From: Sulfurimonas sp.
GTDB lineage: Bacteria > Campylobacterota > Campylobacteria > Campylobacterales > Sulfurimonadaceae
Direction: 5' to 3'
Length of the DNA: 64,000 nucleotides
Assembly: GCA_011391635.1 (NCBI GenBank)
Contig: JAABQD010000003.1
Coordinates: 1-64,000, forward strand
In this document: positions 15,883-23,445 of the stretch, in pieces
Numbering within the stretch: the stretch's first letter is position 1
Layout: each line of letters begins with the position of its first letter
Notes under the pieces: generated by a model
Databases searched by the model: none
Told to the model about the DNA's origin: nothing
The model's input: only the letters and a program-made list of their open reading frames with translations
Made by a program: the position numbers and the translations under genes

Positions 15883-18800
15883 TTACACATTATAATAAGT
15901 AGCATTTGGATGATAAACAACCAAAGCACTTGTGGACTGTTCAGGATGAATCTGGAAAGTTTCACTCAGCTCAATGCCGAACTCTTCGGGTTTGAGTAAA
16001 TCAAAAAGTGGACGGTTCAGCTCCAAATCTGGACAAGCTGCATACCCAAATGAGTATCTAGCACCTTGATATCTGTTCATCTGAACATCGCCGAGTTTGC
16101 TTCCTTCATTCTCTGAAATGTTCAAATCGAGTCGGATTTGTTTATGGACCATCTCTGCCAAAGCTTCGGCAAGTTCGACACCTAGACCGTGAAATTGATA
16201 ATACTCTGTGTAGTCTCCACGCTCATAAATCTCTCTCTCCGCTTCGCTAAGTTTTGCTCCTGCACTCACACAAGTAAGGGCAATCACATCGTGTCTTTCA
16301 GAGTGAAAAAAGTCACTCAAAGCACGGTGTGGAGCTTTGCTTTGGCGTGGAAAAGTAAATTTTGTTATAGCTCTTCCTATGGATTGTGCAAGCGGTTCGT
16401 GGTTGATTTCATCAGGTGCGTTGTACCCTTCGCTTTCATCAAAAATAAGCAGAGTATTATCATCACTGCGACACGGCCAGTAACCATAAATGATGGTCGG
16501 GTCAAAAAGATTTTCATCCAAAAATCTTTTTTTCAGTTTCTCATACGCAGGGTAAATTACTTCATTCATCTGTTTTTTATACGCCTCTTTTGTCATCCCT
16601 TTGGAGCTGTATCCCCAACGAGATTTGAAGAGAATTTTGTGATTCACCCATTCAAATGCCAACTCTTTTTGTGCACGGGTGAGTTTCATCTCTCTTCTTC
16701 CCCAAAACGGCGGAGTAGGAACTTTTACTTCACGACTTGGCATGTGGAGTTCGTGAAACGGCGGAATCACTATCTCTTTTTTCTCTTTTGTGATTTTTTC
16801 TTCATCATCTTTCCCATGCAAATCGGTATCGAAATTTCCTTTTTCAATTCTGCTCATAGCCGTCACACCATCAAAAGCATCTTTGCAGTAAAAGATAGGT
16901 CCATCATAAAAAGGTCGGCAAAAATCGTCTATAAATGCCCTTGTAAGTGCTGCTCCACCCAAAAGTACAGGTATAGCGATTCCCTCAGCTTTGAGCGCTT
17001 CAAGGTTTTCTTTCATCACTTGTGTTGATTTTACCAAAAGTCCGCTCATGCCGATTGCACTCGCATTGGACTCTTTGAGCGTTTTTACAAAGTTTTCCAA
17101 ATCTACTTTTATCCCAAGATTTATAACTTTGAAGCCATTGTTTGAGAGGATAATATCGACAAGATTTTTACCCACATCATGCACATCGCCCTTGACTGTT
17201 CCCAAAATCAGGGTCGTATCGACCGCTTTGTCTATTTTTGGCAGATAAGGGTTGAGATAATCAACAGTTTTTTTCATCGTCTCAGCACTTTGAAGTACGA
17301 ACGGCAACTGCATCTGTCCTGAGCCAAAAAGCTCGCCAACAACTTTCATCGCATCAATCAAAATCTCATTGACGATTTTCTCAGGTGCGATGGTTTTTCG
17401 TGCCTCTTCAACAAGGGGAATCATCCGCTCCTTATCGCCATCCATAAGAAGTTTTGCGATTTTCTCTTCATCGCTCATTGCCAAGTACGCCGCATCTTCC
17501 GCTACATTATCCACCGCTTCTTTGGTGCTGAAGTGTTCTATAAAAGTAAAAAGTGCCTCGCCATGTGGCTTGCGGTCAAAAATTAAATCATTACAAATCT
17601 CTTGGTCTTCTTTACTGATTTTATTTAAGGGAATGATATGTTGTACATTGATGATAACGCTTGTCAGTCCCGCTTCGATACAGTGATGCAAAAACATTGA
17701 GTTCAGGTAAGGTCGTGCATCTTTATCTAGTCCAAAAGAGATGTTTGAAAGTCCTAAAACTGCACCCACTTCTGGATGTCTTTTTCGTAGTTCACGGATG
17801 GCTTCGATAGTATTCATCCCCGCATCACGGTACTCTTCATCTCCACTTCCGAGTGTAAAGGTGAGTAGGTCAAAAACTAAATCTTGCGGATTGATACCGT
17901 GTTTTTGTGTCGCAAGGTCGTAAATACGCTCTGCGATTTCTATTTTTCTCTCTACTGTTTTTGCCATTCCGATTTCATCTATGGTCAGACAAACCAAAGC
18001 TGCACCATATTTTTTGGCGAGTTGACAAACCGCGTCAAACTTCTCTATCCCATCTTCAAGGTTCACAGAATTGATGATAGGTTTGCCACCGATGAGTTTT
18101 AAAGCCTCTTCCAGTGCGGGAGTCTGCGTCGAATCGGGCATAAGCGGAAGAGCCAATTTTTGAGAATAAAGGCTCATAACAGAGTTCATATCTTTTGTTT
18201 CATCGCGTCCTGCAAAACCGACACTCACATCTAAAACATGCGCACCCACACGAACTTGTTGCTGTCCAACACTCAAAGTCCCCTCATAATCTTCCGCCAA
18301 AAGAAGCTCGCGAAAGGCTTTTGAACCCGTTGCGTTACTTCGCTCTCCGATGAGAAGCGGGGCTGGTTCTTGCATAAGCGGTACGGTTGAAAAGAGTGAA
18401 GCAAGAGAGTTCGCCTGAGTTCCACATGCCGCCTTTGGCGTTTTGTTACTCACACGATTGACTAAAGCACGGATGTGTTGGGGTGTAGTTCCACAGCATC
18501 CACCCAAAAAGCTCACACCTCCAAAATCTAAAAATGCCTCTTGTTTATCTGCAAACTCTTCGGGTGCCATCGGATAGTAAGTGTGTCCCCCACGGTTTTG
18601 TGGAAGTCCTGCGTTGGCGTGAACGCTGATAGGTTTGCCCCAAAGTTCGCTGAGAGTTTTAACATGTTTGAGCACTTGTTCAGGTCCAGTTCCGCAGTTA
18701 AAACCAAGACTTAAAATGTCAAAAGGCTCCAAAATAGTCGCAATAGTTCCCGCATCAGTTCCGATAAGCATCGTTCCACTAAGCTCAATTGTGACGGAGA

Positions 18801-19374
18801 CCATGATAGGAATTTGTCTATTTCTCTGAGAATTTGCCTCTGTACACGCATGAAGTGCAGCTTTTATCTGCAAAGGGTCTTGGCAAGTTTCAAGTAAAAA
18901 AATATCCACGCCACCATCTATAAGTGCCAAACAAAATTCTGTATAACCCGCGAACATCTCATCATAGTGGATATGTCCAAGCGATGGAAGTTTTGTTCCT
19001 GGTCCAATTGAGCCTAAAACAAAACGGGGATGTTCAGGAGTGCTAAATTTTTCACATTCCTTTTTTACAAGTTCCGTTCCCGCTTTTGTCAGCTCATACG
19101 CACGATGCCCGATTTGGTACTCATCAAGCACCCAAGAGAAAGAACCAAAAGTATTGGTCGTGATAAAGTCCGCTCCAGCAGTCAAATAAGCATGAAAAAT
19201 CTCAGATAAAACCTCAGGGCAGGTAACATTGAGGAGTTCATTACACCCCTCATTCCCTTCCCATGCGGCATGTGGAATCTTTTCATCACGCTGTTGTAGT
19301 TGCGTTCCCATCGCACCATCAATGATTAGTGGGCGTGTTTTTATAGTGTTTAAAATATACTCTTTTGTTGTCAT
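15883..19374 (-). CDS. metH: Cobalamin-dependent methionine synthase
   Basis: Hcy domain (DGAMGTQLQ, GGCCGTTPQHIRAL), pterin domain, B12 motif GDVHDVGKNLV, SAM activation domain. Confidence 0.97.
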   Translation of the reverse strand: MTTKEYILNTIKTRPLIIDGAMGTQLQQRDEKIPHAAWEGNEGCNELLNVTCPEVLSEIFHAYLTAGADFITTNTFGSFSWVLDEYQIGHRAYELTKAGTELVKKECEKFSTPEHPRFVLGSIGPGTKLPSLGHIHYDEMFAGYTEFCLALIDGGVDIFLLETCQDPLQIKAALHACTEANSQRNRQIPIMVSVTIELSGTMLIGTDAGTIATILEPFDILSLGFNCGTGPEQVLKHVKTLSELWGKPISVHANAGLPQNRGGHTYYPMAPEEFADKQEAFLDFGGVSFLGGCCGTTPQHIRALVNRVSNKTPKAACGTQANSLASLFSTVPLMQEPAPLLIGERSNATGSKAFRELLLAEDYEGTLSVGQQQVRVGAHVLDVSVGFAGRDETKDMNSVMSLYSQKLALPLMPDSTQTPALEEALKLIGGKPIINSVNLEDGIEKFDAVCQLAKKYGAALVCLTIDEIGMAKTVERKIEIAERIYDLATQKHGINPQDLVFDLLTFTLGSGDEEYRDAGMNTIEAIRELRKRHPEVGAVLGLSNISFGLDKDARPYLNSMFLHHCIEAGLTSVIINVQHIIPLNKISKEDQEICNDLIFDRKPHGEALFTFIEHFSTKEAVDNVAEDAAYLAMSDEEKIAKLLMDGDKERMIPLVEEARKTIAPEKIVNEILIDAMKVVGELFGSGQMQLPFVLQSAETMKKTVDYLNPYLPKIDKAVDTTLILGTVKGDVHDVGKNLVDIILSNNGFKVINLGIKVDLENFVKTLKESNASAIGMSGLLVKSTQVMKENLEALKAEGIAIPVLLGGAALTRAFIDDFCRPFYDGPIFYCKDAFDGVTAMSRIEKGNFDTDLHGKDDEEKITKEKKEIVIPPFHELHMPSREVKVPTPPFWGRREMKLTRAQKELAFEWVNHKILFKSRWGYSSKGMTKEAYKKQMNEVIYPAYEKLKKRFLDENLFDPTIIYGYWPCRSDDNTLLIFDESEGYNAPDEINHEPLAQSIGRAITKFTFPRQSKAPHRALSDFFHSERHDVIALTCVSAGAKLSEAEREIYERGDYTEYYQFHGLGVELAEALAEMVHKQIRLDLNISENEGSKLGDVQMNRYQGARYSFGYAACPDLELNRPLFDLLKPEEFGIELSETFQIHPEQSTSALVVYHPNATYYNV
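18420..18430 (-). repeat. 11-mer motif in metH
   Basis: TTCCACATGCC. Confidence 0.9.
19267..19277 (+). repeat. 11-mer motif in metH
   Basis: GGCATGTGGAA. Confidence 0.9.
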
Positions 19375-19483
19375 GGTTAAAAATCTTTTGTTAATTTGTA
19401 GTCTCTTATTTTATCTCAAGAGAGCATAAAAAAGGCTTTGCAAAAAAATTGCAAAAAATATGACGAAATAAGTACGCTAACTA

Positions 19484-19528
19484 TTGACTTTAATCGTCAG
19501 AAAGTTATATAATGACGATGAAAGTCAA
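19484..19528 (+). promoter_or_regulatory. Sigma70-like promoter overlapped by a palindromic operator
   Basis: TTGACT (19484-19489) N18 TATAAT (19508-19513); inverted repeat TTGACTTTAATCGTCA (19484-19499) / TGACGATGAAAGTCAA (19513-19528), one mismatch; third half-site TTTAATCGTTA at 19541-19551. Confidence 0.75.
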
Positions 19529-19554
19529 AAGTATAGGGAGTTTAATCGTTAAAT

Positions 19555-20190
19555 ATGGTAGTAGCTTATATTCGTCCAGATAAAAACTTTGATGCGGCAG
19601 GTGAACAGTTACAGCTTATCAACTCGTATGCGAGTTCAAAAAATATTGTCATTGATGATGAGTTTATCGACCATACTTCTCAAAATAAACGCCTGAGTGA
19701 GCGTACGAATGTTACTGATTATTTTAAAAGTAACGAGGGTGTAACTCTTTTGATTTATGATGTGTGGGTACTTAGCTCAAATATCGAAGACCTTATACAG
19801 ATGTTTAGTTGTATGTTAAAAAAAGAGTTTACCATCCATTTTATCAAGCAGTCTGTTATAATATCGCAACAGAGCAATGTAGTTCTTGTTCTTGGGCTTA
19901 TCGACCAACTTCGCCAGAGATTGCAAAATGAATCCAAAAGAGTCATTGGGCGACCAAAGGGAAGCAAATCAAATTCTAAATTTGATAAACATATAAATGA
20001 GATTATTTCATTTATAAAAGAGAAAAAAAGTGTGAGTGAAATGGCACGCCTTATCGGTCAAAGCCGAAGCTCTCTCAAAGATTATATTGAGTCTCGAGAG
20101 CTTAAGCAGGTGGCATTGAGTTCGCTTTTGCCTCAATCGTCGGAAAATGCAGAAGAGCATCTAATCAACACGATTAGTTGTCCCAATTAA
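19555..20190 (+). CDS. Serine-recombinase-like DNA-binding protein with HTH, probably catalytically inactive
   Basis: Resolvase-like N-terminus (VVAYIRPDKNFDAAGEQLQLI) without the catalytic RVS serine; C-terminal GRPKGSK and HTH SVSEMARLIGQSRSSLKDYI. Confidence 0.7.
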   Translation: MVVAYIRPDKNFDAAGEQLQLINSYASSKNIVIDDEFIDHTSQNKRLSERTNVTDYFKSNEGVTLLIYDVWVLSSNIEDLIQMFSCMLKKEFTIHFIKQSVIISQQSNVVLVLGLIDQLRQRLQNESKRVIGRPKGSKSNSKFDKHINEIISFIKEKKSVSEMARLIGQSRSSLKDYIESRELKQVALSSLLPQSSENAEEHLINTISCPN

Positions 20191-20211: not shown

Positions 20212-21645
20212 ATGAGTGAAGAGAAAAAAGGTATTGAAATACCGACAGAGTGGAGAATCAAACGATACTTTCTGTACGCTTTAGTAACAGTGATTATTTT
20301 GGTTTTACCATGGATAACAATAGAAGGAAATCATTTTTTCCTGCTTAGCTTTGACAAATTGAAGTTGCATCTTGCATTTATTCAGTTTGATATGCAAGAG
20401 TTGTATTTGATGCCATTTTTACTTATGATTATGTTCCTTGGTATTTTTGGTATGACGGTTATGGGTGGACGCGTTTTTTGTGGTTGGGTTTGTCCGCAAA
20501 CTGTATTTCGTGTCATTTATCGTGATTTGATTGAGACAAAAATTTTGGGTCTTCGCAAACGCATAAAAAACAAACAACAAGAACCAGATATGAGTAAAGC
20601 TGAGAATAAAGTCAAAAAAGTAATTGCTATTTTACTTTGGACACTTCTCTCTTTTGTGGCAGCTGCAAACTTTTTATGGTATTTCGTTCCGCCAGAAGAT
20701 TTCTTTGCGTATTTAGCAGACCCAGCGGAGCATATGACGCTTTTTGGGGCAGTGATTGGGATAGCGTTGTTTTTGATTTATGACATTATCTTTTTGCAAG
20801 AAAACTTTTGTGTCTATGTTTGTCCTTACTCAAGAATCCAGTCAGTTTTATATGATGAGCATACAGTTATGGCTCTTTATGATATACACCGTGGTGGACA
20901 TATCTATGATGAAAACAAAGAGAAACTCTTTACAAAACAAAAAGATTTACAAGCGGTTGAACCTCACGCTGAGTGTACGGCATGTGAAAGTTGTGTGACT
21001 GTTTGTCCTACACATATCGATATCCGTAAAGGTCTTCAGTTAGAGTGTATCAACTGTTTAGAGTGTGTGGATGCATGTACAACTGTTATGGGCAAACTTG
21101 GCAAACCATCTTTGGTTACTTGGTCGAGTGATTATGAGATTATTGACCAAAAAGGAAAAACAAAATATTTTCGTACGAAAGTATTAGGATATATAGCATT
21201 ATTGGTGATTATCTCTATTATTCTTGGCATGATGGGAAGCAAAAAAGAGCATATGCTCCTCAATATCAATAAAGAAAATCGTCTCTATTCAGTAGAAAAA
21301 CAGGCTGATAATAAAGTAAGAGTTGATAATGCGTATGAGTTCTTGCTTCAAAATACAGAAAACCATGATTTGGACTATTTCTTTGAAGTTATCCCGCCAA
21401 AAGGTATGGAAGGCAAAATCGTTATCACAAAACCAAGTGAGAAATTTACAGCAAGTCCAAATGTGAAAAAGAAAAAAATTGTCGTCCTTAGTACAACAGA
21501 GATGTTAGTAGATGATGAGCGAAAAGATAGTGTTATCCCGATTACTATCCGTGCATACGCTGTGGGACATGAAGATAAAATCGTAGTGTTAAGAAACTCT
21601 ACATTTACTTTCCCAAGAGCAGATATCATTAAATCTGCAAAATAA
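20212..21645 (+). CDS. ccoG: Cytochrome c oxidase accessory protein CcoG (polyferredoxin)
   Basis: RVFCGWVCPQTVFR, ENFCVYVCPYSRIQSVLYD, CTACESCVTVCPTHIDIR, CINCLECVDAC. Confidence 0.94.
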   Translation: MSEEKKGIEIPTEWRIKRYFLYALVTVIILVLPWITIEGNHFFLLSFDKLKLHLAFIQFDMQELYLMPFLLMIMFLGIFGMTVMGGRVFCGWVCPQTVFRVIYRDLIETKILGLRKRIKNKQQEPDMSKAENKVKKVIAILLWTLLSFVAAANFLWYFVPPEDFFAYLADPAEHMTLFGAVIGIALFLIYDIIFLQENFCVYVCPYSRIQSVLYDEHTVMALYDIHRGGHIYDENKEKLFTKQKDLQAVEPHAECTACESCVTVCPTHIDIRKGLQLECINCLECVDACTTVMGKLGKPSLVTWSSDYEIIDQKGKTKYFRTKVLGYIALLVIISIILGMMGSKKEHMLLNINKENRLYSVEKQADNKVRVDNAYEFLLQNTENHDLDYFFEVIPPKGMEGKIVITKPSEKFTASPNVKKKKIVVLSTTEMLVDDERKDSVIPITIRAYAVGHEDKIVVLRNSTFTFPRADIIKSAK

Positions 21646-21708: not shown

Positions 21709-23445
21709 TTAAAAACTAATTCTATTGCGACCACTATTTTTTGAAGCATATAATAAATTATCCACTCTTTTAAATATTTCATTCATATTTTCACTAGGCT
21801 CAATTTCAACAACACCCATACTTATCGTGAGATTACCAACTGTTTCAAAAGAGTACGCTTCTACTTCTTTTCTCAATCGCTCTGCATATTGCTTCGCATT
21901 TTCAAGTATCGTATTTGGCAAGATAATCAAAAACTCTTCTCCGCCGTATCGTCCAACTATATCCACATCGCGTAAATTTTTCATGACTAAACTCGAGAGT
22001 GAAGCTAGTACGCTGTCTCCAACATCATGCCCATAGGTATCATTCACATTTTTAAAAAAATCAACATCATACATTATGAGAGAAAGAGGTGTTTTATATC
22101 TGTTACAACGGCTCACTTCTGATGAGAGAATATTCATAATAGAGTAACGGTTATGCATAGATGTGAGTTCATCTGTTGTTGCTAACTTTTTAAAATTATC
22201 TTTTACTTTGCTCAGTTCAGCGGTTCTCTCTACTACTTTTTGTTCTAATGAAGAGTTTAGCTCTTCTAGTTGCGTAGTTTTATCATTAATTTTCTCGTTA
22301 TATTTTAAAAAACTATTTTTGACCATTTGAGAAACATAATAGGAGAAAATGAGAGCCAATACGATAATAAACATGGCGATATAAAATATATATTGAGATT
22401 CTGAACTGTATGTTTCATACATGCTCACTTCTTGTTTTGCTAATTTATCCTCAATCTCAGAGAAGAAAAATCCACTTCCTATAATCCAATCTGTATTAGG
22501 AATTTTCTGTATAAACGAATATTTTTTATCTATTTTGTTAGTTGCTCGATTATAAAAATTATATACATGACCAACTTTATCTTTATCTTTGAGAGCATCC
22601 ATGACATTACGAGCAGTGTCGGTTACTAGTGTATCTGTGATATTTTTATCTTCCCCGACAAATTGAGGAAAATATTTGTGAACGAGAAGATTACCCTTAG
22701 AATTGAGTAAAAATACATAGTTTTGCCCCATATTATCTACTGTATTTATGAGAGAATAGAGTTCTTTATCCATTTTCTTAGCTGCGGTGTTCAAATACTC
22801 TCCAGAACCAAAATACCAGTTATAGTGTCCAAAAGCTTTGATAAAGGCAACTTGTTCATATTGTTTCTTGCTATCTTCGTTTGGCTTTGTAAAAGTATCC
22901 CATAAAAATCCTTCACCGTTTTCTTTCGCTAGTGCAATCTCTTCTTGAATTATATATCTGCCATTTGCATCTTGAAAGTTGATGATAGAGCTTCCTTCTA
23001 GATGTCTTAAGTATTTGGGAGCAAGATGAAATATTCCATCATAATCTACAATCCATATAAAGCTCTCCCCATCATTCCAGACAAAAGTCTCGAGTGCGAT
23101 GTGAATCATTTTTTTTATCTCTGTTTCTGATTTGGTCTCTTTGTACTCATTATAAATATTTTCTGCAATGGCATGTGCAGTTTGAACTCTTCTTTGAACA
23201 GTCTCGGTAAGTTTCTCTTTTATTTCCGCTTTTTTATGAATAATGATATCTGTGAGATTCGCAACTTTATCCTCAACAGCTTTTTTTTCACTGTTTAATA
23301 TATCTTCTCTTAAGTTGCTTATACTTGATTCAAAATTTTGTAAATAAATTTGATAAGAGAGCAGGGTTACCACAAGAAAAAAGAGAGGGATGACAACCAA
23401 AGGAGCATAGGTAATGAAATTTAAAAAAGTTTTTTCTTTGAACAT
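21709..23445 (-). CDS. Cache-domain diguanylate cyclase
   Basis: Two TMs flanking Cache domain (DGESFIWIVDYDGIFHLAPKYLR); RYGGEEFLIILP GGDEF motif. Confidence 0.9.
   Translation of the reverse strand: MFKEKTFLNFITYAPLVVIPLFFLVVTLLSYQIYLQNFESSISNLREDILNSEKKAVEDKVANLTDIIIHKKAEIKEKLTETVQRRVQTAHAIAENIYNEYKETKSETEIKKMIHIALETFVWNDGESFIWIVDYDGIFHLAPKYLRHLEGSSIINFQDANGRYIIQEEIALAKENGEGFLWDTFTKPNEDSKKQYEQVAFIKAFGHYNWYFGSGEYLNTAAKKMDKELYSLINTVDNMGQNYVFLLNSKGNLLVHKYFPQFVGEDKNITDTLVTDTARNVMDALKDKDKVGHVYNFYNRATNKIDKKYSFIQKIPNTDWIIGSGFFFSEIEDKLAKQEVSMYETYSSESQYIFYIAMFIIVLALIFSYYVSQMVKNSFLKYNEKINDKTTQLEELNSSLEQKVVERTAELSKVKDNFKKLATTDELTSMHNRYSIMNILSSEVSRCNRYKTPLSLIMYDVDFFKNVNDTYGHDVGDSVLASLSSLVMKNLRDVDIVGRYGGEEFLIILPNTILENAKQYAERLRKEVEAYSFETVGNLTISMGVVEIEPSENMNEIFKRVDNLLYASKNSGRNRISF

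Follow-up and report, generated by a model that had tools for sequence, protein, structure and literature searches.

A serine-resolvase-fold protein without catalytic residues as a probable autorepressing regulator of ccoG and unlinked respiratory genes in Campylobacterota

The regulator-ccoG locus

The window considered here is the whole stretch of DNA that was analysed, 64,000 nucleotides from Sulfurimonas sp. Within it, a gene for a small protein of resolvase-like fold, referred to below as the regulator, is followed after a gap of 21 bp by ccoG. The features of the locus are as follows.

19555 to 20190, plus strand: regulator gene, encoding a 211 amino acid serine-resolvase-fold protein, predicted to be catalytically dead, with a C-terminal helix-turn-helix (HTH) and Cys86/Cys209
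20212 to 21645, plus strand: ccoG (cbb3 oxidase accessory protein CcoG, cupric reductase family; TIGR02745)
19484 to 19489, plus strand: -35 box TTGACT, inside half-site B
19508 to 19513, plus strand: -10 box TATAAT, its last base common to half-site C
19461 to 19499, plus strand: putative operator pair A-B, 39-bp inverted half-sites TGACGAAATAA...TTTAATCGTCA, overlapping the -35 box
19513 to 19551, plus strand: putative operator pair C-D, 39-bp inverted half-sites TGACGATGAAA...TTTAATCGTTA, from the -10 end to the ribosome binding site (RBS)

An earlier note on this DNA had placed an open reading frame (ORF) at the regulator coordinates with ccoG directly after it, and the coordinates, the start and the 21-bp gap all proved correct. 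The downstream gene scores 459 bits against TIGR02745, above the cutoff of 316.7. No terminator was found on the plus strand between the two genes, which are likely to lie on one transcript. Divergently upstream (15883-19374) lies what we take, judging from its sequence, to be a metH-type methionine synthase gene. Convergent to ccoG, an ORF at 21709-23445 reads by eye as a cache-type sensor with a GGDEF diguanylate cyclase domain. The CcoG family has cupric reductase activity and is required for full activity of the cbb3 oxidase (PMC8267372).

A resolvase fold that has lost its catalytic residues

Residues 3-123 of the regulator match the Pfam Resolvase model (PF00239) at 25.4 bits, above the cutoff of 23.3. 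The earlier note had proposed a comparison of predicted structure with serine resolvases. An AlphaFold2 model, built from 18 sequences and of modest confidence (mean pLDDT 75.5, falling below 50 at residues 126-138), has the Tn3 and gamma-delta resolvases as its best Foldseek matches in the PDB, with a probability of 1.00; a sequence search of the PDB returned no useful relative. The nearest NCBIfam model is that of the Mpi DNA invertase (NF009949), which the regulator matches at 38.7 bits against a curated cutoff of 272, and it is likewise the nearest curated model for all 11 diverse family members scanned. A phage or plasmid origin was considered and rejected: plasmid matches are weak (25-28% identity), and the one PHROG match, to a DNA invertase, scores 27 bits.

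Catalytic positions were compared in an alignment of 46 family members with active recombinases from sister genomes (L048-L050), which keep the RVS and RLGR motifs and do not adjoin ccoG. The column of the catalytic serine (Ser10 equivalent) holds Asp9 in the regulator and is never Ser in the 46 relatives, whereas it is Ser in L048-L050. The two Arg columns of RLGR (Arg68 and Arg71 equivalents) read V and S here, within VLSS, and contain no Arg in any of the 46. The loss of catalysis that the earlier note had read from RPD in place of RVS, and from VLSS in place of an RLSR-like segment, thus survives proper alignment and extends to the family. The equivalents of two phosphate-binding arginines are retained: that of Arg8 (Arg7) is present in 44 of the 46 relatives, and that of Arg45 (Arg50) in all 46, the latter match requiring a one-column shift against the active rows. 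Helix E is not full-length, about 13 residues before GRPKG being absent relative to L048-L050, and is followed by a near-invariant DNA-binding segment, GRPKGSxSxSKFD...SRSSLKDYIxSR. The HTH, at about residues 132-178, leads into a tail ending in a conserved Cys, which the first reading had missed. As judged from these alignments, the regulator is conserved but cannot use known serine-recombinase chemistry.

Promoter and operator of the regulator gene

The sequence TTGACT-18 bp-TATAAT, named as the promoter in the earlier note, is indeed the best promoter-like match of the region, at 11 of 12 positions. Around it lie four half-sites: TGACGAAATAA at 19461-19471, TTTAATCGTCA ending at 19499, TGACGATGAAA starting at 19513 and TTTAATCGTTA at 19541-19551. 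They form two inverted pairs of the form TGACGA-N27-TCGTCA, each exactly 39 bp long; from the start of one to that of the next is 52 bp, or five helical turns. When the window was scanned for the 39-bp pair, both sites were matched on each strand, a count of four where 0.32 would be expected; no shuffle out of 100 gave as many. In the whole genome, the exact pair TGACGA-N27-TCGTCA occurs once, at A-B; seven one-mismatch matches elsewhere were set aside as chance, a reversed-pattern control also giving seven.

The earlier note had described a 16-bp inverted repeat over the promoter and a third half-site near the RBS. Both are present, the arms at 19484-19499 and 19513-19528 being complementary at 15 of 16 positions, but the geometry was incomplete: the repeat consists of half-sites B and C facing away from each other, the inner half of each pair, and a fourth half-site, TGACGAAATAA, completes two 39-bp pairs. 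The 16-bp palindrome was rejected as the binding unit because C-D is absent outside genus-type members, while the spacing of 38-40 bp that is conserved across families lies within A-B and within C-D.

One further stretch of this genome (L135:3037-3072; contig C50:29036-29071; 19 bits, E=0.006) looks like an orphan copy of the C-D operator and start region from the regulator's promoter; it sits upstream of a gatA-like gene and may be left over from a second copy that was lost.

Conservation of the operator among relatives

A pair of 38-40 bp, with no more than a single mismatch to TGACG...CGTCA, is present in 83 of 91 regions upstream of regulator genes (65 distinct sequences), a result reached in 1 of 2500 shuffles; the spacing is 39 bp in 54. 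Almost every Sulfurimonas-type relative keeps the 52-bp offset between pairs. Members beyond this group show the first pair alone, which in nearly all cases covers or adjoins the -35 box. In some lineages both arms have changed together (TGGCGA/TCGCCA, AGACGA/TCGTCT, TGACGT/ACGTCA and TGACGG/CCGTCA), a pattern that reading of the two arms by identical subunits would produce. Within the genus, the operator model matched at E<=0.012 in 30 of 30 genomes with the regulator, and in none of 30 without it did a match fall below 0.08, a split that is partly circular, the model having been trained on the regulator's own promoter. Co-occurrence of gene and promoter is for that reason partly trivial, and only the unlinked sites described below are independent. 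Weak matches to the model inside coding regions of three relatives (L139, L140 and L142) were dismissed.

Family distribution, linkage to ccoG and selection

A family profile search of 298 sampled Campylobacterota genomes found 73 with a match at E<=1e-20, of which 65 have a full-length one at E<1e-50. The weakest (about 1e-21 to 1e-23) comprise a split copy in one genome (G269) and recombinases of family f9, which holds active copies as well. The regulator forms an order-wide, single-copy family, with an intact ORF over about 20 or more genera and a near-invariant HTH. In two overlapping sets of loci, ccoG lies directly 3' of the regulator in 45 of 46 and 45 of 45, and the order metH-regulator-ccoG is stable, with no inversions and no mobile context. 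The closest named relatives, at up to 86% identity, come mostly from Sulfurimonas metagenome genomes. A dN/dS of about 0.10, measured against two relatives at 85% identity, points to purifying selection.

Within the genus, ccoG is nearly universal and the regulator is present in about half of the genomes; since ccoG persists without it, regulation is dispensable. In regulator-less genomes ccoG usually still adjoins metH (L121-L123 and L125), with another gene in that place in L124. On the ccoG tree of the genus, five to six changes of regulator presence are needed. Three loci are unusual. In G269 (C20:88933-89554) the gene is split by stop codons, an apparent recent pseudogene. In L033 (G097:C1) the regulator adjoins an apparently broken ccoG copy, and that genome has an intact ccoG at another position. 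L046 (G075:C144) is the sole family member not beside ccoG and also the sole one without both conserved cysteines; in its genome, G075, cydAB carries the operator.

Unlinked targets

In relatives, the operator recurs upstream of an unlinked gene for a single-helix membrane protein of roughly 70 amino acids. Among genomes of the genus, a clear site is present at this promoter in 13 of 18 that carry the regulator and is degraded in the other five, whereas in the nine without the regulator (0/9) all scores are at shuffle level (Fisher p=0.0016 for the 26 genomes in the tree). Phylogenetically independent pairs provide three to four contrasts, all in the expected direction and not significant alone. 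The genome of the window, counted among the 13, has this site in a 40-bp version, flanked by the small gene and a cytochrome c-like gene. At the small-protein promoter, a -10-like TACTAT can be made out by eye about 45 bp downstream of the site.

Rearrangement of these genes between lineages is informative. In other families, two loci (L162 and L163) have an operon of regulator, ccoG, a NifX-like gene, the small gene and a type III sulfide:quinone reductase-like gene. The small gene of G075 lies behind cydAB in an operon with a separate 39-bp site, placed over TTGACT...TATAAT. In L041 a SLAC1/TDT transporter gene comes after regulator-ccoG; in G016 and G035 this gene has an operator to itself, which in G016 overlaps the -35 box. 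Nothing else argues as strongly for a functional site that belongs to the regulator as the fact that genes sharing the operon in one lineage carry the operator when elsewhere in another. The earlier note had suggested a genome scan for its palindrome near respiratory genes. In relatives this was productive, the predicted operator standing at unlinked, functionally related genes for the small protein, cydAB and SLAC1/TDT; in the genome of the window the exact pair is confined to A-B.

The small proteins (for example L143:1847-2041 and L106:4336-4548) share the motif LExxxDYxxLxGEKKRxVWxV and travel with ccoG, cydAB and the regulator. No Pfam or NCBIfam model matched them above cutoff. A role as an accessory subunit of a terminal oxidase is possible.

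Conserved cysteines

Cys86 and the C-terminal cysteine (Cys209) are both present in 45 of the 46 aligned members, the single exception lacking both. Their joint conservation is a hint that the protein may sense redox state or metal. Together with the targets (ccoG, cytochrome bd and sulfide:quinone reductase), the two residues make a redox, copper or sulfur cue plausible, although the nature of the signal is speculative.

A model for the regulator, and its alternatives

We consider it highly probable that a small serine resolvase or invertase lost catalysis and became a dedicated transcription factor, which represses its own gene, has ccoG under the same control and acts at a few unlinked promoters. 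Family-wide loss of catalytic residues, order-wide linkage to ccoG, conservation of the operator with the gene, and unlinked respiratory sites that vanish without the regulator together argue for this reading, and give strong support to the earlier proposal of a repurposed recombinase fold controlling itself and ccoG. Weighing the other way are the five degraded unlinked sites among the 18 carriers, the small number of independent tree contrasts, the persistence of ccoG without the regulator in about half of the genus, and the modest confidence of the structural model. From the sequences we infer dimer binding, repression and co-transcription of ccoG as follows. Each dimer would use the C-terminal GRPKGS arm and the HTH to bind an inverted pair of TGACGAWWNAA half-sites that together span 39 bp. 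The regulator's own promoter would accommodate two such dimers, offset by 52 bp on a shared face of the helix: the first would cover the -35 box, the second the stretch between the -10 end and the RBS, and they would most likely block RNA polymerase; autorepression is suggested because the two pairs cover these elements on one helical face, and it would also set the level of ccoG through co-transcription. The same protein would control a few unlinked promoters, those of the small membrane protein and, in some relatives, of cydAB and the SLAC1/TDT transporter. Relief would probably come through a redox, metal or sulfur cue sensed by Cys86 and Cys209. A more elaborate version, which we offer tentatively and hold to be rather unlikely in full, would make the family order-wide one-component sensors derived from a dead serine recombinase. 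The former dimer/active-site domain with its Cys86, together with Cys209 at the C-terminus, would respond to copper, heme, reactive sulfur or the redox state; pairs of dimers, bound to 39-bp sites 52 bp apart, would couple as a synapse-like tetramer across the promoter, switching genes for ccoG, cytochrome bd and sulfide oxidation.

The choice between repression and activation is judged from site geometry. That the regulator is mainly an activator, or a dual regulator, is the most serious alternative, with perhaps a minority chance of being right: the site some 45 bp upstream of the -10 at the small-protein promoter suits activation better than steric repression, whereas at the regulator's own promoter, at cydAB of G075 and at SLAC1 of G016 the site overlaps the -35 box, and in the genus the second site at the regulator's own promoter covers the -10 to the RBS. 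It is improbable that the 39-bp site is owned by another transcription factor gained and lost together with the regulator gene. The assignment of the operator to the regulator is made from sequence, which leaves room for such a factor; yet the site tracks the regulator gene over many families and through five to six changes of presence, a resolvase-type HTH suits half-sites with an outer major-groove element and an inner AT tract, and no other gene is a constant neighbour on the 5' side.

The two remaining alternatives deny the protein a regulatory role and are less probable again. A still-active site-specific recombinase with a non-canonical nucleophile, for which the paired 39-bp sites would be res-like recombination sites, would explain the resolvase fold, the retention of R7 and R50, and the resemblance of inverted half-site pairs at the gene's own promoter to res; it is very unlikely given that the serine and the RLGR arginines are lost in all 46 members along with about 13 residues of helix E, that most relatives outside the genus have a single pair at the gene and hence no partner site, and that synteny shows neither inversions nor mobile context. 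Least probable of all is that the gene is what remains of a recombinase in decay, its neighbourhood and promoter motif being preserved through linkage. Catalytic loss, repeated losses within the genus and the split copy in G269 could be read in that way, but an ORF intact in about 20 or more genera, the near-invariant HTH, the low dN/dS, cysteines kept in 45 of 46 members and an operator kept also at unlinked genes all speak against it. The domesticated regulator remains the preferred reading.

Relation to known systems

The TnpR and res pairing of Tn3 and gamma-delta shares with the regulator its fold, domain order and inverted half-sites at its own promoter. The res subsites of these transposons span 25, 28 and 34 bp. 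The regulator differs from TnpR in lacking the catalytic Ser and the RLGR arginines, in its shorter helix E, in its 39-bp pair, and in being chromosomal, fixed beside ccoG and directed to unlinked respiratory targets. Mpi-type DNA invertases (NF009949/PRK13413; L048-L050) have the same G-R-x-KG hinge, but the active ones retain RVS and RLGR and lie away from ccoG. Repression by recombinases of their own genes is already known, TnpR repressing tnpR and tnpA by binding res (PMC7157771), as is one tyrosine-recombinase fold that serves as a repressor: MrpR (YopR), the master repressor of prophage SPbeta, has a recombinase fold without catalysis and now acts as a DNA-binding repressor (PMC10516654). 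MrpR, however, belongs to a prophage, whereas here a serine-recombinase fold would act in core respiratory control across a bacterial order. Known respiratory regulators of Campylobacterota resemble the regulator in controlling genes related to terminal oxidases; a 2019 review of them mentions no recombinase, resolvase or invertase (PMC6682613). A literature search, with most subscription papers outside its reach, found no report of this family, nor of a catalytically dead serine recombinase as a transcription factor.

Conclusions

The regulator genes, currently matched to recombinase models only, should not be annotated as DNA invertases, and the family now becomes testable. Our results provide a specific operator and a small list of candidate targets for the regulation of terminal oxidases and copper in Campylobacterota. 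If the proposed reading is true, many genera share a core respiratory regulator built on a serine-recombinase fold, which would represent a clear case of the domestication of an enzyme into a transcription factor.
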